From contig JAIXMG010000015.1 in assembly GCA_025201345.1 (NCBI GenBank), positions 558,001-622,000 on the forward strand: a DNA stretch of 64,000 nucleotides, given 5' to 3'. Origin of the DNA: Thamnidium elegans (Eukaryota > Mucoromycota > Mucoromycetes > Mucorales > Mucoraceae). Shown piece after piece: positions 6,115 through 41,127 of the stretch. Positions within the stretch are counted from its first letter, which is position 1. Each line of letters starts with the position of its first letter. The notes below the pieces were generated by a model, which ran no database searches, was not told the origin of the DNA, and saw nothing but the letters and a program-made list of their open reading frames with translations. Position numbers and translations under genes: made by a program.

Positions 6115-6306
6115 TTAACTATGCCAACATTTTATCTTTTTCATGTGACTTTACGTTGGCTTTTATACTTTTCACATGTTTTGGAACTGCCCTCGTTTTT
6201 ATAAATACTTCCATTTTTGTATCTTTTTTTCGTACCTTTTTTTTTACAATATAAAAGTCGTAGTTTTTTATATATATGTAATCCCGGTAAACCCCCTCCC
6301 CCACTA

Positions 6307-7356
6307 CAGTCAGGCTTATGGAAATTGGCGTTTTCTAAAAAATAAATGTCACAAGGTTAAATTATTTTTGGCACAAGTTGGTAACTAAAATTAGCAGATG
6401 TTTTTGGCGGTTTTTTTTTTTGTCCTTTTTGCTTCTTTATAAAAATATAACATAACAATGACTACATTCTTTTATGAAGATGGACAAGAAAACCTTTTCA
6501 ATGAACATGGAAAGGAGAAATGAAGCGTGACAAACTTTTGTAGTCACAGACCATGTCCAGTAGAATCAGGGATGTCTGTGAGCAAGTCTTATTGAGTGAC
6601 TTGTATAGTTTTGCAAACCATTCAAAACGTCAAATCTCGAAATGTTATGATAGAATTCCTTTTTAAGCTTCTTTAAATATACACCCTAAGAAAAGAAACG
6701 AATAAAAAAGTTATTTAGTAGGAAAAGGTAACGCAAACAACAAGGTTAGATAGAGGTTATTCTCGTGCCGTTATCATTTTGACACATTTGAGTAAAGAGT
6801 GGAATATTGTACTTTTTTCAATTTTGACGGGTATTCTCAATTTGTACTAATTATGAATAAAACTTTAGTCAATTTTATAATATAAATGTACACTGGTGAG
6901 GATGATAAACGTTTCCGAATTATTTCTGTACGATCAAAGTTTGAATTTAAACAGTTGCGGAGAACATGATTTATTGCATGGCATATGGCGTTTTATATAC
7001 TGAATTTTCACAAACAATCAGATTCAAGCACGACTAGGTAAGAAGACTAGCGTAGCAGTGACACTTTTCAAAAACCAAAGTAGAAGCTTAGAAGTTATAG
7101 AGAAGAGACCAGAAAAAAATATGGGTTCCAGAGGAGACATTCTTTTTACACTTCAAGGTCAAGGAGTTAGGATTCAGTAAAGTTGGAAAGGACGCAGTAC
7201 TTCCTATCGATGACAAGTACCTTAATGATGGGTTGTTGAAACTATTAAAGATGCTAAGATACATTTTCTCTGTCTTTGTGGAAACAAATCATTCTCGAAT
7301 TAGTCAACTCGTAAGGAGAAAATAAAGTGGTAGTTGAAAATCAGTTAATTAAATCA
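6307..7356 (+). repeat. Left inverted arm of the 7.6-kb element
   Basis: About 1,050 bp. It reads inward from CAGTCAGGCTTATGG and ends with TTAATTAAATCA. It matches the right arm in reverse complement throughout; the comparison was by eye. It contains no credible gene. Confidence 0.88.
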
Positions 7357-7395
7357 ATGTAATGTTAACTAAAATAAATTCAATCAAGCGTACAG

Positions 7396-7611
7396 TTGTT
7401 CCAATGCCAAAGGCGTGTTTTTAAAGGCTGTTTTCTGAAAGTTAAAGGGCGGTTTTTGGTATTCCTACTTGAACTCACTATACCTGAGGATATACCGACC
7501 AACCAACATAAATACTATATGACTTTGATTGCGACAATCCAGTTTGCTATCTGGAAGCACTACTGGCAGTTCTGCATTCACTATACGTCGTTTGTGACCG
7601 TTCCATACTAG
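7396..7611 (+). pseudogene. Possible remnant of a LINE-like ORF2 C-terminus
   Basis: A 71-codon open frame just inside the left arm. Its last part (IATIQFAIWKHYWQFCIHYTSFV) has the Trp/His/Phe spacing I associate with the end of Mucorales non-LTR retroelement polyproteins. No reverse transcriptase motif is present, and the start is not gene-like. It is best read as a nested fragment; the assignment is weak. Confidence 0.25.
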
Positions 7612-7901
7612 CCTTCATTTTGCAGCAATACCACCTAACTGTCGACGTTCCCTATGTTGATTAATGAGATATTTGGTAGTCGTAATACCGTTATATCGTA
7701 TTCTGTCATATCGTCTTCGTTTTGAAATGTAGCCATTAGCTCTTTCGGAAGTCATATTCTTATATACCAATACTATTTCGATTTATATATAATCTCGCCA
7801 CATCCCTCCACGATGTGTGACGTTTAATAACTTTAATAAAATTCTTTATTATTACTACGAAAAAAAAGCATACTTAAAATGATATGATTAATGTGCATGA
7901 G

Positions 7902-9746
7902 TTATTGATTAACTGTGAATGGGCAAGGCCGCTTTCTGTTTTTCGTGCTGCTAGCAAGCTCTCTAAAGATCTCCTCACTCATACCTGCACGCATGTTTGA
8001 CTTTAAACTATCAATATCATTTGCCAATTGACAATGATTCTTATATAAATGGTGAACAGATAAAAGGTCTTCACAAGCGGCAACATATAGTCTGAGTTGA
8101 GTAGCGTCTCTAGGCATACTTATGGTGCAAATTTCAATCATTACATAAAGTCCAGAATCAAGCAAACAAGTATAATAGACTGTCACTATCAAGCCTACAA
8201 AGCAAGTTTAGTTAAAAGTCCATAAAGTTTTAGCAACAACCTACCAACAGCTTGAATACCAATCACCCCTTCATAGAAATTATTGTCAATGGACTGTTTA
8301 GAGAATCGGCCAATTCTAATCAAGTCTAAAAGAGTCGCATATATATCATCTTTTGCATCTTCGCCCTTTACTTCACCCACGGTAACTGGGCCATTCCATA
8401 CGATATTGTTTAGTATTCTTCCTACGAAATCTGGTCTTTGAATCGAATTGCTTATTTGAATATCGCACCTGTAAATATCATTCACGGACTAATTCTTCGT
8501 ATACTCAAATTCTTTTAAGTAATAGCTTACCATGAAAATTGCTTTCCTGAATCAGTATCTTCAATGATAGGACGAAAAATAGAATCAACGTAAGTCCCAC
8601 ACAATGTTCTTTCTTGGATTTTTCCTGTAAATTTTTTTCTTGGTAGTCTTTCCGTACTAATGAAAAAATTACGTCAATACATAAGCAAAAAGCAAAAAGC
8701 AAAAAGCGTATTATTATTATGATACTAACAGGTTTCTCAGACCAATCAAAATGTCATCTACAGCGGTATCAACATTTTCTGAAGTCAGTGACATGATACA
8801 TCTAGAAGCTTGTCTTGATCCAAGTTTTCCTTCGCCAAAATTCTACACAAGAGTCATAATTAGCTGCGCTTTTCGCCTTAAAGTTTAAAACAAATACCCA
8901 AATTTACCTTTACAATCAATTTTAACTCTCTCTCTAGATTCACATCAAGTGTTTCGCTTTCAATACGATATTTTTTTTGAATGTGGTTTGTCAAGCTTTG
9001 AATCATATCAATTCCCAAGATATCTTTCACATCTTCGCATATTTGATCTTTCTTTAAAAGCAAAATATTGTCTAATGCCAAGATGCCTTGTGCATCTGTT
9101 TCTACCAGTAAACCGGTTTGATAATACTTCTTGGCAACCATAACTTGATATTCTACCCACTTTTCTAAAATTACTTTTCCATCAATAACAAGACTATCTG
9201 TTGGAGGAACACGCTTATAATTCATATCGAACGATTGCTTGTTATTCTTTTGAAGCTGGGTTGATTTTTTGCGTGAAGATTGAGGTACTGGAGAATTGTA
9301 CACTGAGCCATTGAAACTGTTCAGGGAATGGTTGATGGAGCCTATATTGATAGTTGAAGAGCTACTCGGTCTTATAAAAAAAATATTGTTGGAGTATTAT
9401 GTTTCTTCACACATAAGGGACTTTACTTACGTTGCATAATTTGAGGGTTCTGACGACGATGTTCGATGCGACTCAGTCGTGGGTGGTGGTAATTGAGCAA
9501 GATAATTGTTTTTCATAGTCTGAATATTGTACTAGTTTTATTTCTCTGCTTAAACTTTATCTCTTTTTTACTTACATTCCAATCGTGTTTCCATTTGCTC
9601 GCTTTTTCGTTGTTATGAAAATTTAACTCTTGTCTTAATGCATCAAACGCACTCTCCAAAGAGCAATTTCCTTTTTCAATGCGCTTGGCCGCGATAGCTT
9701 CATCAAAGTTCCAATAACTGTAGACAGTTTTTGCTAAGTATGACAT
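7902..9746 (-). CDS. Cargo gene: PD-(D/E)xK-like protein of a Mucorales-expanded family
   Basis: Seven exons (9746-9576, 9519-9431, 9370-8908, 8842-8730, 8656-8531, 8468-8245, 8194-7902) join in frame to 492 aa with no stop. The N-terminal half is hydrophilic with a Ser-rich stretch. The C-terminal half holds RPDF (PD at about 333-334), then VGEVKGED (E353-x-K355), then DLIRIGRFSKQSID and a GLYVMIEI strand. The spacing PD...ExK is that of PD-(D/E)xK nuclease-fold proteins. From general knowledge, multicopy Mucorales proteins share this RPD/GE(V/A)K/GLYxMxE pattern; their function is unknown to me. All introns have GT-AG ends and proper phase, so the gene is not decayed. Activity as a nuclease is inference only. 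It could be the element's own recombination factor, or a captured host gene. Confidence 0.72.
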
Positions 9747-10022
9747 GTGAGGAATAGGGAGATTTTATGGAGTTTGATTTATGAAGTCATTCTTTTTGTC
9801 TTTTTTTTTTGTGATTTCAATATTATTCACTAGCCGCCTATCCTCACTACGCTCAGAGGCGTCGTCGCCCTGCGGGTTTAGTCGATTTCACAAAAGGACG
9901 CTGTTGATTCAAGCGCACTACGCCATCACAAATGACGTAACTATTATTTATTACACTAGACTTAAAAATTTCCGTCGTAAGCAATTTTTAAACACTTTAC
10001 AAAGTTACATCAAGGGTGCCAC

Positions 10023-10567
10023 TTTGGCTTGGTCAGTAGTTATAGCTGCGAAACAGTAGTTCTGCGTTACTCGGGTTTGCTACGACTCTACACGTTTTGT
10101 GCTCTCAAGGTCCTTTGGTTACTTGGCATCTTTGATGCTCGGGAACCATAGATCTGACTTGCGAGGCAGCTTGCAGCAATGTTGAATAGAAGCATTTCGT
10201 GTTTTCCATTGCTGATTCAGAGACATCCAAGGATTTTGTTGTCGATAACAAAGTTAGGCGGAAAAGATTTGTAGTTGCGTAGCCATTGGTCTGACATGGA
10301 AGGTTCTATAGTTTGTTATCGATTTCGATTGGGAACTATAGGTCTGACTTACGAGGCAGCTTCCAATACAGTTGAAGAGTGAAAATGTGATGTATTCGTA
10401 CACACAGGTTCATCCTGTATCATTAATTGTCATCTTGAAGTCTTGTTACAAGATGGGAAAGAAAGATACTTTGCCACTCAGAGATTAATACAAACTGCTG
10501 TTTTGGCTACTGCTTTATAAGTATTGTTCCAAGTCAATTTGGTATCCAGGCTCACATAGCTAAGTAT
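10023..10567 (+). repeat. Internal direct repeat, copy 1
   Basis: About 545 bp, repeated at 10684-11228 with an offset of 661 bp. The copies differ at about four positions that I noticed. It contains two versions of a 32-bp motif starting GGGAAC(C/T)ATAG at 10141 and 10331. It is non-coding as far as I can see. Confidence 0.9.
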
Positions 10568-10683
10568 AAATTCTTTCACGTAAAAGAAGCATTATATTGA
10601 ATTTGTCTTCTGCTAGGGAAAATGAATATCTTTGTTCAGATTATTCTCCAAGGAATATTTTGGAACTATAACAAGTGTTCCAT

Positions 10684-11228
10684 TTTGGCTTAGTCAGTAG
10701 TTATAGCTGCGAAACAGTAGTTCTGCGTTACTCGGGTTTGCTACGACTCTACACGTTTTGTGCTCTCAAGGTCCTTTGGTTACTTGGCATCTTTGATGCT
10801 CGGGAACCATAGATCTGACTTGCGAGGCAGCTTGCAGCAATGTTGAATAGAAGCATTTCGTGTTTTCCATTGCTGATTCAGAGACATCCAAGGATTTTGT
10901 TGTCGATAACAAAGTTAGGCGGAAAAGATTTGTAGTTGCGTAGCCATTGGTCTGACATGGAAGGTTCTATAGTTTGTTATCGATTTCGATTGGGAACTAT
11001 AGGTCTGACTTACGAGGCAGCTTCCAATACAGTTGAAGAGTGAAAATGTGATGTATTCGTACACACAGGTTCATCCTGTATCATTAATTGTCATCTTGAA
11101 GTCTTGTTACAAGATGGGAAAGAAAGATACTTTGCCACTCAGAGATTAATACAAACTGCTGTTTTGGCTACTGCTTTATAAGTATTGTTCCAAGTCAATT
11201 TGGCATCCAGACTCACATAGCTAAGCAT
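10684..11228 (+). repeat. Internal direct repeat, copy 2
   Basis: Second copy of the 545-bp unit, separated from the first by a unique spacer of about 116 bp (10568-10683). The 32-bp motif recurs at 10802 and 10992. Confidence 0.9.
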
Positions 11229-12833
11229 GATGTTATGCATTTTCCTTAAAATCAGTATAATCCATTAGCCGTGTCGCGTCATTCTCACTTTAACCGTCCT
11301 CACAAGCTAAATCAATCTCATGCTTGGTGTCTAGAAATTGCTGAAGTAAGTTGATACTATAAGTTTTGATGCATGTTTTGTGATAACTTATGAGCTTATT
11401 TGTCTGAAGAATTCTCCTGATGATATTGAAATTATGTACTGATTTTTTAATTCAAGCGACTGAACAAGACAATGAGGTTGATTTACATATGGCTCATACT
11501 TTGACGCCAACATGGTGTAATGAGTTACTAGTACCATATATTTATTTAGACCACCTGTGTTTGTTGCTGGTTCTCATGATAGTTCGATCGAAGACTCTTA
11601 TGTGTGCCATTATTTAGCACCCATACTTTAGTCAATTTATAGTACGGATAAAAAATTCATTGTTTAATGGTAAGTTGGCAGTTTTTGTGGAAATAGAAGA
11701 CTAATCTACATGCATTTGATGCATTTTCATAGGGCCAATGACGCCTCAAATGAAGATCCAACTGTGGAGAAATACTTTGATTTAACACAGAAAAATTAAT
11801 AAAAACAGGTGAATAAGATTAAATGTCTAATAACGTTTATTTCTTATTTATAGTCTTTTGCAATAGTGGTCACACCATTGTGATCGTTACACTTAGACTT
11901 GACCTAGTGATTTTTATAGCCTGAGGATCTTGGTTTCTAGATCCTGTGCTTTTTTTTTATATATAAGGTTCATTTTGTTACCTAACGTTTGTTATCGATG
12001 GTTCATCGATTATTATATATTCTATTTTATGTGTGATTTTACCACACCAACATTTGAACCTGACTTTCAGGGCTTTAACCTTATCATTAATATTAGATGT
12101 ATCGTTATTGTGGTAGAATCTGACTTGATCAAATTAGGAAAACAGATCTACAGTCCGCGGACTTTTATGTCAAGGTAAAAAATTTAAACACACATGTAAT
12201 GGATATGCCATCTCCTTACACATATCGAATGTAGAAACATCGAAGAATTACATTTGTCACCTGCCTTCATTTATAAGCTTATTCAAGTTAAAGTAAGTAC
12301 ATAGTGTTTGATTAAAACGTTTATATCTTGCTGACCTTAATTTCTTTTGTAAATAATACAAACAGAATATCACTCAACTGTAACTCGTTTTCATTATGAT
12401 TAATGAATTATACGCCAATCATCAACTATTATCGTTATTGCAATATATATTTAAACTTCTTACATTGCCATATTAAGCATAATCGTCAATAGTCATTCCG
12501 CATAAAAAAAAACCAGCAAACTTGAATTTTTTTGTTTTATTTATATAATCAATCACATCCCAGGATCTTAAATAAAAAAATCTGTTATTTTTCTATATAT
12601 GTGTAAAAGTGCATGCGTATTTATTTAAAATAAAGACTTTGTAAAAATTGATGGCCTTGAAGTAGATGTGATGCATCGTACTAGCCATTCTACTGCATAA
12701 TTCAAACATAATGTTTTGTATCACTATAACAATCTCATACTTATTGATAGCTTTACTCTCTCAGTCGTTCCAAAAATAAGACATATAATTGCTTAATCTT
12801 CTTTTATTTAACGTCAGCGAAAAAATAAAATGT
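11229..12833. other. AT-rich interior of the element, right half
   Basis: Between the direct repeats and the right arm lie 1.6 kb with only short open frames (for example 11420-11617 and 11930-12178), none with a recognisable motif. A decayed gene cannot be excluded. Confidence 0.4.
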
Positions 12834-13929
12834 TGATTTAATTAAATGATTTTCAACTACCACTTTATTTTCTCCTTACGAGTTGACTAATTCGAGAATG
12901 ATTTGTTTCCACAAAGACAGAGAAAATGTATCTTAGCATCTTTAATAGTTTCAACAACCCATCATTAAGGTACTTGTCATCGATAGGAAGTACTGCGTCC
13001 TTTCCAACTTTACTGAATCCTAACTCCTTGACCTTGAAGTGTAAAAAGAATGTCTCCTCTGGAACCCATATTTTTTTCTGGTCTCTTCTCTATAACTTCT
13101 AAGCTTCTACTTTGGTTTTTGAAAAGTGTCACTGCTACGCTAGTCTTCTTACCTAGTCGTGCTTGAATCTGATTGTTTGTGAAAATTCAGTATATAAAAC
13201 GCCATATGCCATGCAATAAATCATGTTCTCCGCAACTGTTTAAATTCAAACTTTGATCGTACAGAAATAATTCGGAAACGTTTATCATCCTCACCAGTGT
13301 ACATTTATATTATAAAATTGACTAAAGTTTTATTCATAATTAGTACAAATTGAGAATACCCGTCAAAATTGAAAAAAGTACAATATTCCACTCTTTACTC
13401 AAATGTGTCAAAATGATAACGGCACGAGAATAACCTCTATCTAACCTTGTTGTTTGCGTTACCTTTTCCTACTAAATAACTTTTTTATTCGTTTCTTTTC
13501 TTAGGGTGTATATTTAAAGAAGCTTAAAAAGGAATTCTATCATAACATTTCGAGATTTGACGTTTTGAATGGTTTGCAAAACTATACAAGTCACTCAATA
13601 AGACTTGCTCACAGACATCCCTGATTCTACTGGACATGGTCTGTGACTACAAAAGTTTGTCACGCTTCATTTCTCCTTTCCATGTTCATTGAAAAGGTTT
13701 TCTTGTCCATCTTCATAAAAGAATGTAGTCATTGTTATGTTATATTTTTATAAAGAAGCAAAAAGGACAAAAAAAAAAACCGCCAAAAACATCTGCTAAT
13801 TTTAGTTACCAACTTGTGCCAAAAATAATTTAACCTTGTGACATTTATTTTTTAAAATCCGATCAATTTTTTTTTTTGACTTTCGGCCAATTATTTTTTA
13901 GAAAACGCCAATTTCCATAAGCCTGACTG
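12834..13929 (-). repeat. Right inverted arm of the 7.6-kb element
   Basis: About 1,096 bp, the reverse complement of the left arm. Near the outer end (about 13856-13900) it has roughly 42 bases absent from the left arm. They are bordered by short ATTTTTTA repeats, as expected if the left arm lost them by slippage. Confidence 0.88.
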
Positions 13930-14135
13930 TATCGTACATGGTACCTGATTCTATTTTTGAGTAGGCTATTAGGGGAAGAGTGTACAACACTGACACAACA
14001 GATTCTGTGATTCACGTTCATTAAAGTCATAATCTATTACTCAACAAAGAAAACCATTATGACGAAAAAGATATAATACATTGTACAGTTTTTATTAAAT
14101 AATAATACATAAAAAAAAAGGGGGGGGGGAATAAT

Positions 14136-30685: not shown

Positions 30686-32227
30686 TTAACAGCAGAACCA
30701 CTTCTTCTTCTTTGGCTTGTTGGCTTTATTCTTAGTATTCGCAATGCTTTCCTTTACTGGATTAGTGCTGGTTGTGTTTGCAGCGGCTTTGGCAGCATTA
30801 GTATCTGGTGCAATTGCACCAGCAGCTGTAGGTACAGTACCAGTAGCAGTAGTAGCAGCTCCAGTAGTAGCAGCTCCAGTAGCGGCAGTGGCCGTAGCAG
30901 CTTTAGCAGCGGTACCGGTGGAATTAGCTGTGCCAGTAGATGTAGGAACAGTACCAGTAGATGTCGGAGCAGCACCAGTAGATGTGGGAACAGAACCGGT
31001 AGATGTAGGGACAGTACCAGTAGATGCAGGGACAGTACCAGTAGATGCAGGGACAGTACCAGTAGATGTGGGAACAGTACCAGTAGATGTGGGAACAGAA
31101 CCGGTAGATGTAGGAGCGCCGATACTTGCAGGAGGGATGTCAGAACTGGTCGGTACCGTAGAAGAAGCCGCGCCGGAGACTCTATTAGCACTCGTATCTA
31201 CAGGATGAATTTCGTTAATATCAGATGCTCTAGCATCTAAACCATTAGCTGCCGTAGTAGGTTGATTTGAAGTAGCAGCGCTTCTAGCACCCGAACCAAC
31301 AGTTGAAGCAGTTGTTGGAACAGATCCATGCACTGTGTTAGAAGCATCTTTTCCTCTAGATCCAATAGCTGAAGCAATACCGGTAGCACCAACAGCACCG
31401 GCAGCAGCACCAGCTACACCAGCACCAACGTTACTACCACCTCGTTCATTCATATTAACAGCATTTGGGCTTAACGTATCGCCATTATTATTTTGAACAG
31501 CAGAGACGACATTAGGATTAACTGAATTCGAAGTTGGATCATTTACAGTAGCAGCACCGCCTTGATTATAATCAGAATTTGTACCAGCAGCAGCATTCGT
31601 AGTAGATAAATCAGCATCTCTACCTTTTACAAAAGTCGACACTATACTAGCAAAATTTTCGGCTTGAGTTCTAGCAAGACTTAATTCTAATGCGGTTGGT
31701 TGACGAGACCCATCGCCATCCGATATGGTTCCGCAACCATACGCGGAGCCACCAAAGACTTCATCTACGGTCTCCACGCCCTTATTAGCGTATCCAGATG
31801 GGACATACAACATACCATGATGAGCAAAATAAGTGACGGCAGTTAAGGCAGTTGTTTCTTGTCCACCGTTTTGAGAGGCAGTGGAAAAGAAAGTGGCAGC
31901 GAATTTACCAGCTAAAGCACCTTTGGCCCATAACGCGCCACTGGCATCTAATAAGGCCTTCATTTGTGCAGGCATGGTACCGAATCGGGTAGGAAGTCCA
32001 AACATAATAGCGTCGGGCTCGGATAGTCTATCAATGGTCATGATGGGTAAGTCGGGTTTGGGTGGTGCTTGCATCTTTTGAAGGATCTCGTCAGATAGTG
32101 TCTCTTGCACTTGAAATAACTTGACATCGACTCCTTTGGATTCTAAAGTTTCCTTGATGGTTAAGGATAGTTTATAGACATGGTGATACAATGAGTAAAT
32201 AACTATATATACAACTGGCTTCGTCAT
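30686..32227 (-). CDS. WrbA/Pst2-like flavodoxin quinone reductase with repeat linker and Cys-Cys tail
   Basis: The first 205 or so residues are an NAD(P)H:quinone oxidoreductase of the flavodoxin fold. IYSLYHHVYKL is the FMN phosphate loop region; GLPTRFGTMPAQMKALLD and FFSTASQNGGQETT are family signatures. It probably protects against quinone stress. The remaining 300 residues are low complexity, with about nine near-perfect 7-residue units of the type VPTSTGT (DNA period 21 bp, about 30925-31130). The end is a polybasic KPKKKKWFCC. A basic patch plus terminal Cys-Cys suggests lipid anchoring to the plasma membrane, as known for yeast Ycp4-type paralogs (inference). The gene has no intron, unlike its divergent neighbour. 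513 aa. Confidence 0.9.
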   Translation of the reverse strand: MTKPVVYIVIYSLYHHVYKLSLTIKETLESKGVDVKLFQVQETLSDEILQKMQAPPKPDLPIMTIDRLSEPDAIMFGLPTRFGTMPAQMKALLDASGALWAKGALAGKFAATFFSTASQNGGQETTALTAVTYFAHHGMLYVPSGYANKGVETVDEVFGGSAYGCGTISDGDGSRQPTALELSLARTQAENFASIVSTFVKGRDADLSTTNAAAGTNSDYNQGGAATVNDPTSNSVNPNVVSAVQNNNGDTLSPNAVNMNERGGSNVGAGVAGAAAGAVGATGIASAIGSRGKDASNTVHGSVPTTASTVGSGARSAATSNQPTTAANGLDARASDINEIHPVDTSANRVSGAASSTVPTSSDIPPASIGAPTSTGSVPTSTGTVPTSTGTVPASTGTVPASTGTVPTSTGSVPTSTGAAPTSTGTVPTSTGTANSTGTAAKAATATAATGAATTGAATTATGTVPTAAGAIAPDTNAAKAAANTTSTNPVKESIANTKNKANKPKKKKWFCC

Positions 32228-36287: not shown

Positions 36288-38762
36288 CTATGACATGGGA
36301 TTATCATCTATAAACATATATTTGTTCATTTTTCTTGGACTAAAATATCTAAATTTTGGTTGATTTTTAAAAGTCTTTGTTTCGGGTGATGGGTTTAATG
36401 AAGGTTTAGTTGTAGGTTGATATGGTACAAAGGATGGCATGGATGAAGAAGGTGGTATAGCTAGGAATTTTGAATTATTAAATTGTATATTAGTGTTATT
36501 TTGAAATCGATGAGACTGATCAATGAATGAAATGGGTGAAGGGCTGATGGGATAAGTATCCGGTACAACCGTAGTAGGATGACTAATAATGTGTTGATGT
36601 TGCATCCATGCTGATTGATTATCATTTGTTAAATCTTGAGTCGCAGACGATAATGACATACGTCGTGACAGATCGCATTTTATCTTGTAAGTATCTGCCA
36701 TACCATCTTGTCTCTTCTTTTCTGCATCTGCTTTAAGGTTAGCAAGATAATAATCTGACTTCTTGTTATTTGGCTTATTATTCTTTGCGTTTGCTAGTTT
36801 TGATCGAGGACTAGAATACAGTTGATGTCTTCGAATCTCTACCTGTAACCAATCTGCTACTTGAATCCAATTTCGATTCAGTGCTTCAAATTCCATGGTA
36901 TTTTTTAAAATATCTAATGCTCGTGTCAACCCATTTTCAAATTCGGCAGGACAAATATCTTTAATGATCAATGCTCTATCTTCAATCGAAGCGCAAGCTC
37001 GATAAATATCCATTGCCATTGAAATAACTTCGCTTGCTCTCCAAAATTCATCTCTATCAAAGGAACACCTGCCAGTAGGAAGAAACGAGCCCGAGTTAAG
37101 TGTAGGTAATTGATTCAACGCTGTCTTTAAACAAATATTCAAAGACTCTAATGAGAACTGACTTGGTCTTGGATCATTTTGATCCGGTATAAATAATTTG
37201 TGAAGAATAATTCGTGTAGCATTATATTCGATATTGACTCGAATACAAGCCAAAAATAAATCTTCATGTCCATATTCAAACCCGCTATCAAACTTCAAGT
37301 AATCTGGCAACTCGGCATAAAACGCCAATAATTGTTTATCATACTCTTGAAGTTGTTCTACTGTCATATCTGATTCTTGTTCGTATATGGTAGCTATCAG
37401 ATGAGCTTGTATCTTCCACAATCTTAAACAATGTATATAGGCAATAATACTAATTTCATTTTCATCAATATCTTGTTCCAAAACTTTGGGATAATCAATC
37501 TCACTACCGGGGATTCGAGGCTGCGGTGTATTCTTTGGTGACCCCGACGAATACAGATAAAAATCCCAAGCCCACACAAACCACCAAAGCCGGGTATCCA
37601 TTTCTTTTTCATAGGACTCATCATCTGATTCAGCAACTGTGCGAGGATAAATTTCCAACTCATGTAAAGCGGACACTGCCATTCCAGCATAATGATGTTT
37701 CCGACTTGGTTCAGCTCGAAACACCATCAATAATAACGAAACAATTGTAAACCTATCAGGGTTATCAAACGATTGAGACAAACATTCTCTTGCTGCATCA
37801 AAGAAATACTCTTCTTGTTCCAAAATTTTATCCTGATCACCAACAAAATGTTCTACGCCTGGTATTGAATGATGTAAAACCATGTGTCTAAATACGAACA
37901 AACAAATAGCATTGACAATTAAGGTATTTGTTGCATCAGGTTGCGCGTGATACCAAATCATAAATTCATCTTTATTTAATACGGGCGTATTTCTTATCCA
38001 ACAAATAAAATAAGTATCAATACAAGCATCAGCTACTTGTTTTAAGCTAATCAACCCATGTTTTGAATGAGGGTGAACAAGTTGACCTAATCTACCTACG
38101 GAAGCAAAATAATTGACAGGTTTTAATTTATGCGATTTGTTTCTGCAAAGAGTAATACCGCTATTGGTGCTAGTAACTGATTGGTTTGAAGAGATAGGGT
38201 ATTCGTCACTTGAAGCAATTGTTATTGGCGAAAGAGGAAATAAAGGTGGTGAATGGGAATAATGGTCATGTGCCACCACAGGTGTGTCCGTACTACATAA
38301 CTTACTAAACACATCAATAAGCGAATGCAGATCGGATGCGCTAGTAACATTTGCCTCCATATTGATACCAACATCAGTATAAGATAAATTGAACTTTGAC
38401 CAGATATCAAGCTCAACTGTGCTGGGCATAGATAATGTAGGCTGCTCCCAAAATGTTGTATTACCGCAGGTAGGCAATGATAATAATGAATGGACTGAAT
38501 GTTTGTCGGGTTTTATGCTACTAGCGGTAGTAGTAGGTTCTGTAAAATCTGTCTTTATAGAAAATAGTTCTGGCTTGTTTGTTATTTCTTTATGTTTATC
38601 TGATATCCAGGTTTCTGGTGACCAATCCTTTGGATGACTGTGATTGACGGTAAATGGCGAAATATCATCAAATGCTGAGAAATAAATATCTTGAGGTTCA
38701 TTAAACGGTAAAGTAGAGCATCGACTACGCTTTTGTGACCTTCCAATAGTATCAAAAGGCAT
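36288..38762 (-). CDS. Fungal transcription-factor domain protein without Zn2Cys6 cluster
   Basis: A single-exon gene of 824 aa. The central region, about aa 215-640, has the helical fungal-specific transcription factor domain (RLGQLVHPHSKHGLISLK, then DTRLWWFVWAWDFYL, then PRIPGSEIDYP). The N-terminus begins MPFDTIGRSQKRSRC and has only Ser/Thr/Pro-rich sequence. No CX2CX6C cluster is present, and no upstream exon that could supply one is apparent. The C-terminal 180 residues are Asn/Ser/Pro-rich, as in activation regions. It may act as a dimerising cofactor, bind DNA by other means, or have lost its zinc cluster. It is convergent with GLR1, 99 bp away. Confidence 0.83.
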   Translation of the reverse strand: MPFDTIGRSQKRSRCSTLPFNEPQDIYFSAFDDISPFTVNHSHPKDWSPETWISDKHKEITNKPELFSIKTDFTEPTTTASSIKPDKHSVHSLLSLPTCGNTTFWEQPTLSMPSTVELDIWSKFNLSYTDVGINMEANVTSASDLHSLIDVFSKLCSTDTPVVAHDHYSHSPPLFPLSPITIASSDEYPISSNQSVTSTNSGITLCRNKSHKLKPVNYFASVGRLGQLVHPHSKHGLISLKQVADACIDTYFICWIRNTPVLNKDEFMIWYHAQPDATNTLIVNAICLFVFRHMVLHHSIPGVEHFVGDQDKILEQEEYFFDAARECLSQSFDNPDRFTIVSLLLMVFRAEPSRKHHYAGMAVSALHELEIYPRTVAESDDESYEKEMDTRLWWFVWAWDFYLYSSGSPKNTPQPRIPGSEIDYPKVLEQDIDENEISIIAYIHCLRLWKIQAHLIATIYEQESDMTVEQLQEYDKQLLAFYAELPDYLKFDSGFEYGHEDLFLACIRVNIEYNATRIILHKLFIPDQNDPRPSQFSLESLNICLKTALNQLPTLNSGSFLPTGRCSFDRDEFWRASEVISMAMDIYRACASIEDRALIIKDICPAEFENGLTRALDILKNTMEFEALNRNWIQVADWLQVEIRRHQLYSSPRSKLANAKNNKPNNKKSDYYLANLKADAEKKRQDGMADTYKIKCDLSRRMSLSSATQDLTNDNQSAWMQHQHIISHPTTVVPDTYPISPSPISFIDQSHRFQNNTNIQFNNSKFLAIPPSSSMPSFVPYQPTTKPSLNPSPETKTFKNQPKFRYFSPRKMNKYMFIDDNPMS

Positions 38763-41127
38763 ATTGTATTGTTGTTGTTATAGTTACTGTTGTATGTGTA
38801 TATAAATAAAAAGAAAAAAAAAGTGAAAAAGAAAAAGAAAAAAGTTGTGTGAAAATAAAATAAAACGTTAGTCAAAACAATAAAGAATAATCAGCGACTG
38901 TGATACAAAGTGAAATAAATTAGAAATCAGTGGCCAATAACTTTGCTAATCAAATCAAATTAAACAGATAAAAAAGCTTATCATTCAGAAAACAGGCTTC
39001 TTTTAAGACTCACATCACTTTCTTTTAAAAGAAAACTGTACATGTGTTCCTCGTTCATGGATTTTTTTTTTTTTTTTACTAAGCTCACCTAAGAAGATGA
39101 AAAGAAAAACAGTATCAAATCATTGAAATCTATACCTTTCATTTTTTTACGGTGATACATTGTACTTATATTTTTATTAGCAAAGTGTTTTAATTCATAT
39201 ATTTACATCCCCATCCAAAAATTAAGAGGTAAAAAAGCTTTTTTTAGTAGCCCCGTAAAAACGGCCCATACTTTATTGATAGCGGAAAATTCATAGATTA
39301 TTGAAAATAACACTATTCTCGTTATCAAATTAATATGCAACCCATTAAAATCTAACTTTTGTCTAAAGAAGGTACAGATCATTGCACTTTATATATATAT
39401 GACCACATACAAAAATGGAAAAAAAAAGTAAAAAGGGGTAAAAATCTATATACAATCGGTCGATTTTTTTCTTTTTTTTTTTTACAAAAGGTGGGTGTAC
39501 TATCTGTATTTACGGAGATAAGGTTAGTACTTCAATATTGTGGGAAGTTGAAAAAAAAATACACCATGTGCCCTCTTTTTTTTGTAAGTGTGGGGATTTT
39601 TTATATAGAAAAAACTAAGATTTCCTTTTCCACGGCTGATTGACTGTTTATATCCTCACCGTATTGTTTTAACACGGTACAACCCCAATCAACTTTTTCG
39701 TTATATAAGAGGTTTTGCGTAATCAATACAATTTCTTATTTTTGATTTAGAATATGAAAGTTAATAATGTCAAATTGATTTCATAAGTTTTCATATTCCT
39801 GCTCTCCCTTTTTAGATATAAAAAAAAGGAAAAAAAAAAAAAAAAAGAGGCCATTTATATAGAGTAATGATTTTCTCACCATTCTGTGTTTTTCTATTAC
39901 ATGTGTTACTATAAACATTTTATTCAAACTATTATAGAACTCTGTAATTCTCTCTCGGATCTGCACTAAGATTAAATATGAATTAAAATGCATCTTTTGG
40001 TAAGTAAATCATATTGTGCCACGATATATTCTTCGCTTGTAAAAAAAAAAAAATTAGGCCCAACGCTTTCCATTAGAGTCTTCTCAAGTAAACTCTAATA
40101 CGTGCTCAGCAAAATGTACCAACACTTTAATTATAATCCTATGCTTGCAGCGAATTAGATATTTTGATAGTCACTGAATTATTTTAGTATAAAAATAGAG
40201 CAACATATAAAACACATTTTATATGATTCATGGCATCACACTACCTAGACCGAGCCGTAAAGCACTGCAGATTAATCGCAATATTATTCCGGGCGTGAAT
40301 AATAAAATAATTATTGTGTCTCTTGCAACAAAACTTACTCGAATAGAACTGTTTACGAGTGTCACTTGGTAACAAACCATGATATAAAAAAGTCAGATTA
40401 AACAAGAACATACAGATAAAAACTTAAATATTCGATCGGTGCAAATAAACCAAGGTTTTTATTAGTATATCCTAGGTTGAAGAAATATATCTTTATAAAT
40501 AAACGCACTATTGAGCTATGTAACTAAGTTATTCAAAGATATATCTGCCCTTTTGTTCTTTAATATACCAGACTTTTAACTCAATAAAACCTAATGTATT
40601 GGAAAATTAAATTATACTGTCACTTGGAATAAGCACCAAAAGAAACTTGTACAGCATTTTTATTACTGAATAATATTTTTTGCTACTACTTTTGAAGCTA
40701 CGGAATATAGTTGTAGAGGTTATTCCGGTACGCGAACCCTTATTCTCTGCAAACACGGCTTCTACAAGAGAGGGTTTAAATTATCACAGGTAACAACTGC
40801 AAAGCAGCATAGTCCTAATAACACAAGTTTTTTTTTTTTTTTTTTTTTTTTTTTTGCCAGTTATAGGTTCGAATCAAAGTCTAAGCTTTCTCTCTATTTT
40901 AATTTTTTTTTCCTTCTCAAAGTAAGGTTATCAGCAACTTTAAATAATTATTTAAACTCCAAGTTTGAAAAGGGTTAATAATAAAAGTGCTTTATTTACA
41001 GGGTTAAAAATATACATGGTTATGAAGTTATTATGTGTATTGGAGAATATATGCAAATTTTTTTTATCAAGTTCTTGCTGTACAATAAAGCGAACTGAGG
41101 ATTTCTTTAAACAAATCTGGAGGATTT
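38763..41127. other. Gene-poor region with poly(T) and a dispersed repeat
   Basis: Upstream region of the transcription-factor gene and 3' flank of the hypothetical gene. A 28-T run lies at 40828-40855. The segment 40690-40765 resembles 33790-33855. Open frames (for example 39359-39643) follow homopolymers and are not credible. Confidence 0.5.

Follow-up and report, generated by a model that had tools for sequence, protein, structure and literature searches.

What kind of element has inverted arms of about 1 kb and TA at both ends, yet carries an intact multi-intron gene in place of an intact transposase? The question is raised by a segment of the genome of the fungus Thamnidium elegans (Mucorales), located within 64,000 nucleotides of contig JAIXMG010000015.1 (GenBank assembly GCA_025201345.1, positions 558,001 to 622,000). 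We refer to this whole stretch as the window, and to the segment as E1. A preliminary description of the window held that E1 fits no known class and might be a new foldback-type or cargo-carrying family. Here, we compare E1 with the rest of the T. elegans assembly (34.1 Mb in 64 contigs; the window is on contig C7). E1 has TA ends and chimeric Tc1 arms, it has relatives elsewhere in the genome, its cargo protein has a nuclease motif, and another locus holds a two-gene element in which such a nuclease accompanies a transposase. E1 is probably a chimeric, non-autonomous member of the Tc1/mariner group whose inverted arms have been extended, which has captured a nuclease gene, and which is moved by the transposase of other copies.

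The first step is to define the limits of E1. Both outer ends read TACAGTC, confirming the TA described earlier, and we therefore set the element at 6305..13931 (7,627 bp, TA to TA), 2 bp beyond its earlier limits on each side. The left TA (6305..6306) and the right TA (13930..13931) form a putative target-site duplication, deduced from the anatomy of the element in the DNA of one strain; the flanks of the insertion site read CCCCCAC-TA-TCGTACATGG. Two features of the ends place E1 with Tc1/mariner elements: TA is present at both, and the terminal repeat is shared with transposase-bearing copies. One of these copies begins with a single E1-type terminus at C34:51057 and has its transposase gene in interrupted frames. 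E1 itself has no intact DDE transposase gene. Transposase sequence is found there only as stop-bearing fragments in the arms, and for this reason we file E1 as a non-autonomous Tc1/mariner derivative. The earlier statement that no transposase is visible thus holds for an intact gene, but not for fragments, which are present in both arms.

The left arm (6305..7357, plus strand) and the right arm (12833..13931, minus strand), shown by alignment to be its inverted copy, are nearly identical, as had been supposed. When 6305-7357 is aligned globally to the reverse complement of 12833-13931, there is 1 mismatch in 1,053 aligned positions (99.9%) and one 46-bp gap, by which the left arm is the shorter. 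The 46 bp were probably lost from the left arm, because the C34:51057 relative has that stretch. A repeat search of the window recovered the arms as an inverted pair of 1,025 nt (6333-7357/12833-13857) and an outer pair (6305-6361/13875-13931). The only other inverted pair of at least 60 nt in the window has 331 nt at 77% identity (31784-32114/32699-33029), so the arms of E1 are far beyond chance. That other pair perhaps reflects opposed paralogous genes. Long inverted arms are a foldback-like trait; the window repeat search (at least 40 nt, seed 14) found no family of direct repeats inside them, and E1 is therefore foldback-like by shape only. Near identity over 1 kb would also fit mirror arms produced by misjoined reads. 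We regard such an assembly artefact as very improbable, given that the arms differ by the 46-bp gap and one base, that their inner boundaries and flanks differ, and that 5.5 kb of distinct, gene-bearing DNA lies between them. In addition, two related loci, E3 and E4 (see below), have similar inverted duplications of other extent.

What are the arms made of? Their outermost part is a Tc1/mariner end with the start of a transposase gene, belonging to a subfamily that we call A (6305..6511, plus strand; best match, the C34:51057 copy; mirror, 13679-13931, 92.5%). The adjoining part, 6511-6849, is 88% identical to a second subfamily, B (C34:177898-178258), whereas identity to subfamily A is just 65% there. 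The arm switches from A to B at 6511, and it is therefore a chimera in which the beginning of a transposase gene and its final codons survive. These codons are in a C-terminal, subfamily B transposase fragment (6496..6663, plus strand; mirror, 13527-13694); each of the two fragments matches transposase at 84% protein identity and has one TGA and one TAG stop. On contig C9, one copy has a C-terminal transposase piece and, after it, an inverted end with 83.6% identity to E1 over ~185 bp, which we take to be the ordinary length of the terminal repeat. Further inward, the arm holds fragments of a second gene family (6950..7313, plus strand; mirror, 12877-13240), with 38–44% protein identity to an open reading frame (ORF) at 270 kb of C7. 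This family is also present in E3 and E4, and a Pfam search with one ORF of the arm gave no family above cut-off. The size of the arms, which far exceeds the ~30 bp of typical Tc1 ends (PMC7325037), is what a new foldback-type superfamily unrelated to Tc1/mariner would lead one to expect. We give that alternative hardly any weight, since the arms contain Tc1-type transposase pieces and a Tc1-type end motif, and the subfamily B transposase has a DDE_3 domain (E = 1.2e-17). The ends and arms are those of Tc1/mariner copies in the same genome, among which is a transposase-bearing relative, E2. E1 is indeed cargo-carrying and has a long-armed, foldback-like shape, but the idea that it fits no known class, or forms a new one, can be set aside.

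The relatives of E1 bear on how it arose. Its 26-bp terminus, with up to 3 mismatches, occurs at 12 places in the genome, including both ends of E1, whereas a reversed control gives none. Seven places have the subfamily B end, and two pairs of these ends delimit TA-ended elements: E2 (C34:176406-182969; 6,564 bp) and E3 (C23:1259992-1264462; 4,471 bp). E2 is a large relative whose transposase gene lies in two frames that overlap. It also holds a nested retrotransposon-like frame of 834 aa, which we take to be a DIRS-type retrotransposon; a nested insertion therefore accounts for at least part of the size of E2, and we do not read its interior as cargo. A further locus, E4, lies ~295 kb from E1 on C7. 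It has a single subfamily B end, at 269066, its left end being lost, and it shares both interior and arm sequence with E1. The inverted ends of E2 span 75 bp at 97%, and those of E3 349 bp at 99.1%. In E4, the inverted pair measures 231 bp at 91% (182 bp at 99.5% with stricter scoring) and spans the inner border of the arm and the adjacent interior. As inverted duplications differ in extent among these relatives, copying occurred more than once or over different lengths. Because two of the three related loci have such duplications, at lengths unlike those of E1, it is probable that the arms arose by the copying of one end onto the other. The arms of E1 differ by 0.1%, compared with 11% between E1 and E4 over the shared arm (8% and 15% in two interior pieces). 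This makes the copying of the arm, or else a subsequent conversion between the two arms, a young event.

Alternatively, E1 may never have moved as a unit: a Tc1-derived end could have been duplicated in situ, or copied there by conversion, on the two sides of old DNA rich in nuclease sequence, with the outer TAs coming from older, separate insertions. Several observations favor this account and weigh against a mobile E1. Neither a second full copy of E1 nor an empty site or another pair of its ends was found in this one genome; the remaining 10 termini are single, and those checked have no partner within ~1.5 kb (up to 6 mismatches). The locus is old and composite, as indicated by decayed genes, an insertion resembling a solo long terminal repeat (LTR), and an inner Tc1-like end at 7391. 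Moreover, E1 and E4 are on one contig. Against assembly in situ, both outer boundaries fall exactly at a terminal TA, and E2 and E3 repeat the TA-to-TA anatomy elsewhere. On balance, we think assembly in situ unlikely and prefer to view E1 as a transposed Tc1/mariner derivative. Movement in trans is plausible because matches to Tc1-type transposases are numerous in this genome.

What does E1 carry? As described earlier, an intact multi-intron gene lies in its ~5.5-kb interior (7902..9746, minus strand). Our seven-exon splice model is identical to the annotated 492-aa T. elegans protein BDF21DRAFT_422142 (100% identity over 100% of the length). The cargo family has a PD-(D/E)XK motif: in a 24-row alignment inspected by eye, the D is present in 18, and E-x-K in all, of the 19 rows that cover both sites. 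The motif points to a PD-(D/E)XK-type nuclease, presumably an active one, and the predicted fold is compatible with this. The fold is that of a model built from the 24 rows; a first model from 6 rows was discarded (predicted local distance difference test score, 42). Pfam returned no family above cut-off for the exons or the whole cargo, and a sequence profile against PDB gave one row, a leucine-rich repeat protein (E = 0.066). Foldseek found nothing at E ≤ 0.001 in PDB and viral sets; the best viral row, a DUF5898 protein of a pandoravirus (probability 0.99), is above that level at E = 0.011. No relatives were confirmed in IMG/VR and GTDB contigs.

Is the association of this nuclease with a Tc1/mariner element particular to E1? 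The cargo protein has 36 matching rows in its own genome, 7 of which are E1's own; the others make up 24 loci outside E1. Ten of these 24 loci are within 5 kb of a Tc1-type transposase match, compared with at most 4.3% of the genome (matches being the best 150 of 322 candidates, or 148 without E1's own two). Two of the 10, both on C13, have one transposase in common. The binomial probability of this result is 2.6e-8, or 4e-5 with all 322 candidates as background, and both values overstate the association because transposons cluster. For the other nuclease type, with the E4 gene as query, none of 16 loci (query locus included) is within 5 kb of a Tc1-type transposase match. At four of the cargo-type loci, the nuclease and transposase genes converge, with a spacing of 239–520 bp.

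At one locus, C19:299850-304808 (4,959 bp), converging nuclease and transposase genes lie within a single pair of TA-ended repeats, the ends being identical over their first 35 bp. Both genes are split between two frames and therefore either are interrupted or contain an intron that was not recognised. A 26-bp end of the C19 type, with no mismatches, also occurs as a pair at C29:214450/219547, around a weak nuclease match (C29:216594-216917; 25%, E = 2e-4); 0.004 nuclease loci are expected in a stretch of that size. No transposase lies inside the C29 pair among the best 150 of 322 Tc1-type matches, the C29 DNA itself not having been read. In the stretches examined, there are no Tc1 end pairs flanking the nuclease loci on C18 and C13, and no convincing inverted pair at the nuclease locus on C63. 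On C13, beside a Tc1 transposase, the C-terminal part of the nuclease gene has a second, inverted copy (426 nt at 99% and 126 nt at 100%; L083:1445-1986/3811-4351), a parallel to the young mirror arms of E1. A frame in E3 resembles the N-terminus of the C18 nuclease weakly (E = 0.005), too little to assign this nuclease to E3. Two small structures were also seen. A 470-bp element directly upstream of the C18 nuclease gene (L082:4093-4562) has 46-bp inverted ends and, by eye, an apparent 8-bp duplication; we take it to be unrelated. On C45 (721277-721548), two inverted C19-type ends (0 and 2 mismatches) are 272 bp apart, possibly a miniature derivative of the two-gene element.

The cargo also has relatives in other Mucorales. 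Identity over aligned residues is 92.0% of 474 for Pilaira anomala, 94.7% of 436 for Mucor plumbeus, 94.6% of 166 for M. circinelloides, 89.2% of 148 for Cokeromyces recurvatus, and 95.3% of 127 for Rhizopus stolonifer. It is 93.3% of 135 for protein P0110 and 72.2% of 169 for P0111. Another alignment gives 86–95% for the five relatives with species names. As a baseline, identities for a regulator gene in the window (36288-38777) are 84% for Pilaira (over 66% of the query), 73% for M. saturninus, and 70% for M. hiemalis. For M. lusitanicus, Cokeromyces, and R. stolonifer, whose matches are probably paralogs, the range is 48–53%; no row of this comparison is named M. plumbeus. The M. plumbeus cargo relative extends into DNA that is non-coding in E1, with 52 residues of the frame 7615-7782 aligning with 3 differences, and P0110 terminates in the same intron read-through. 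Very similar proteins that share intron and downstream sequence suggest horizontal spread, as judged from protein data and one baseline gene. Two points limit this reading. First, the 11 rows of the search for relatives, mostly fragments, include three less similar proteins (a second Cokeromyces protein at 39%, Benjaminiella at 50%, and one more at 57%), at odds with a uniform pattern. Second, contamination may account for the M. plumbeus case: that species was sequenced in the same study as a T. elegans strain (PMC7928374), and P0004 probably comes from that assembly, judging by its tag.

The remainder of the interior is consistent with the earlier description in having a duplicated block, with copies at 10006..10595 and 10667..11261 (both plus strand; 96% identity); no further copy is among 56 rows of a genome search (best 40 of 159 candidates scored). 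Beyond it lies a decayed, second nuclease-like gene (11287..12331, plus strand), with a better kept relative in E4 (C7:266.5-267.4 kb). The gene is broken up by the solo-LTR-like insertion (11763..12046, plus strand; 284 bp, TG..CA, 5-bp duplication CCAAC), which is absent from E4. This insertion has many genomic relatives (best 40 of 159 candidates), several of them <25 kb from a contig start. A 168-bp stretch between the interior and the right arm (12665..12832) is missing in E4. The TACAGT-type sequence at 7391..7413 (plus strand) is found at 16 places in the genome, including this one, and we interpret it as a terminus of another Tc1-like family. Rfam gave nothing at the gathering threshold for the whole window. 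Elsewhere in the window, 21-bp tandem repeats (30774-31156) lie within a 514-aa open frame on the minus strand.

How might such an element have formed? The transposase gene was lost except for its two ends, from two subfamilies, whose junction is seen at 6511. One end would then have been copied, inverted, onto the opposite side, most likely by post-excision gap repair in which synthesis switched between the inverted ends; recombination or gene conversion between the arms is an alternative route. Transposase from other copies, recognising the ends of E1, would excise it and insert it at TA. The nuclease gene probably derives from Tc1/mariner elements with two genes, a nuclease and a transposase in convergent orientation; the C19 locus is a complete example of such an element. 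The nuclease would act on DNA, and its cutting probably aids copying of the element, the least certain of these steps. More tentatively, and with considerable doubt, we propose a two-gene Tc1/mariner family of Mucorales in which the PD-(D/E)XK nuclease is a working second gene. It would cut the empty or sister site and drive gap repair from the element, so that the element is copied rather than lost. The same repair would give rise to mirror arms and chimeras, as well as to derivatives that, like E1, hold cargo alone, and the family would pass between genera.

These loci offer a fungal case of Tc1/mariner elements found repeatedly with a nuclease gene, and related loci within a single genome let one follow the stages by which a plain element turns into one with long arms and cargo alone. 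It becomes testable whether transposon-borne nucleases promote the copying of their own element. Should DNA data bear out the similarity of the cargo between genera, horizontal spread would have taken place recently. How does E1 compare with known systems? Nuclease-bearing and cargo-only Mariner elements, long-ended multi-gene Tc1/mariner elements, and end extension are each known. Their combination, with this nuclease family and host group, has no match in the literature covered, i.e., mostly non-subscription papers, with Repbase and most subscription papers outside that coverage; this includes any Mucorales element joining Tc1/mariner to a PD-(D/E)XK nuclease.

Mariner elements with TA duplications and a nuclease gene, Fanzor, beside the transposase are on record, as is the cargo-only PUl-4 (PMC3627910). 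The T. elegans loci resemble them in their Mariner ends, TA duplications, and pairing of nuclease and transposase genes, and E1, like PUl-4, is cargo-only. E1 differs in being a Tc1/mariner element of Mucorales with a different nuclease family and 1-kb extended arms; the three-gene Mariner examples there are viral, and the Fanzor1 genes of three Mucorales are assigned to MuDr-type elements (PMC3627910). In Galileo of Drosophila, as in E1, internal sequence from outside the terminal inverted repeats has been recruited into the inverted ends, which reach ~1.2 kb, and extension by template-switched gap repair or by recombination/conversion has been advanced for it (PMC3573991, PMC4168063). Galileo, however, has a P superfamily transposase, whereas E1 belongs to Tc1/mariner, has TA at its ends, and carries a nuclease. 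Tec and TBE of ciliates are, likewise, members of the Tc1/mariner superfamily with several genes, and Tec has ends of ~700 bp, but its second gene is a site-specific recombinase (PMC7325037). Lastly, KolobokP combines a DDD/E transposase and a nuclease gene in one element, a parallel to the fungal loci described here, although it belongs to the Kolobok superfamily and has long direct repeats and a His-Me finger nuclease (PMC9587614).

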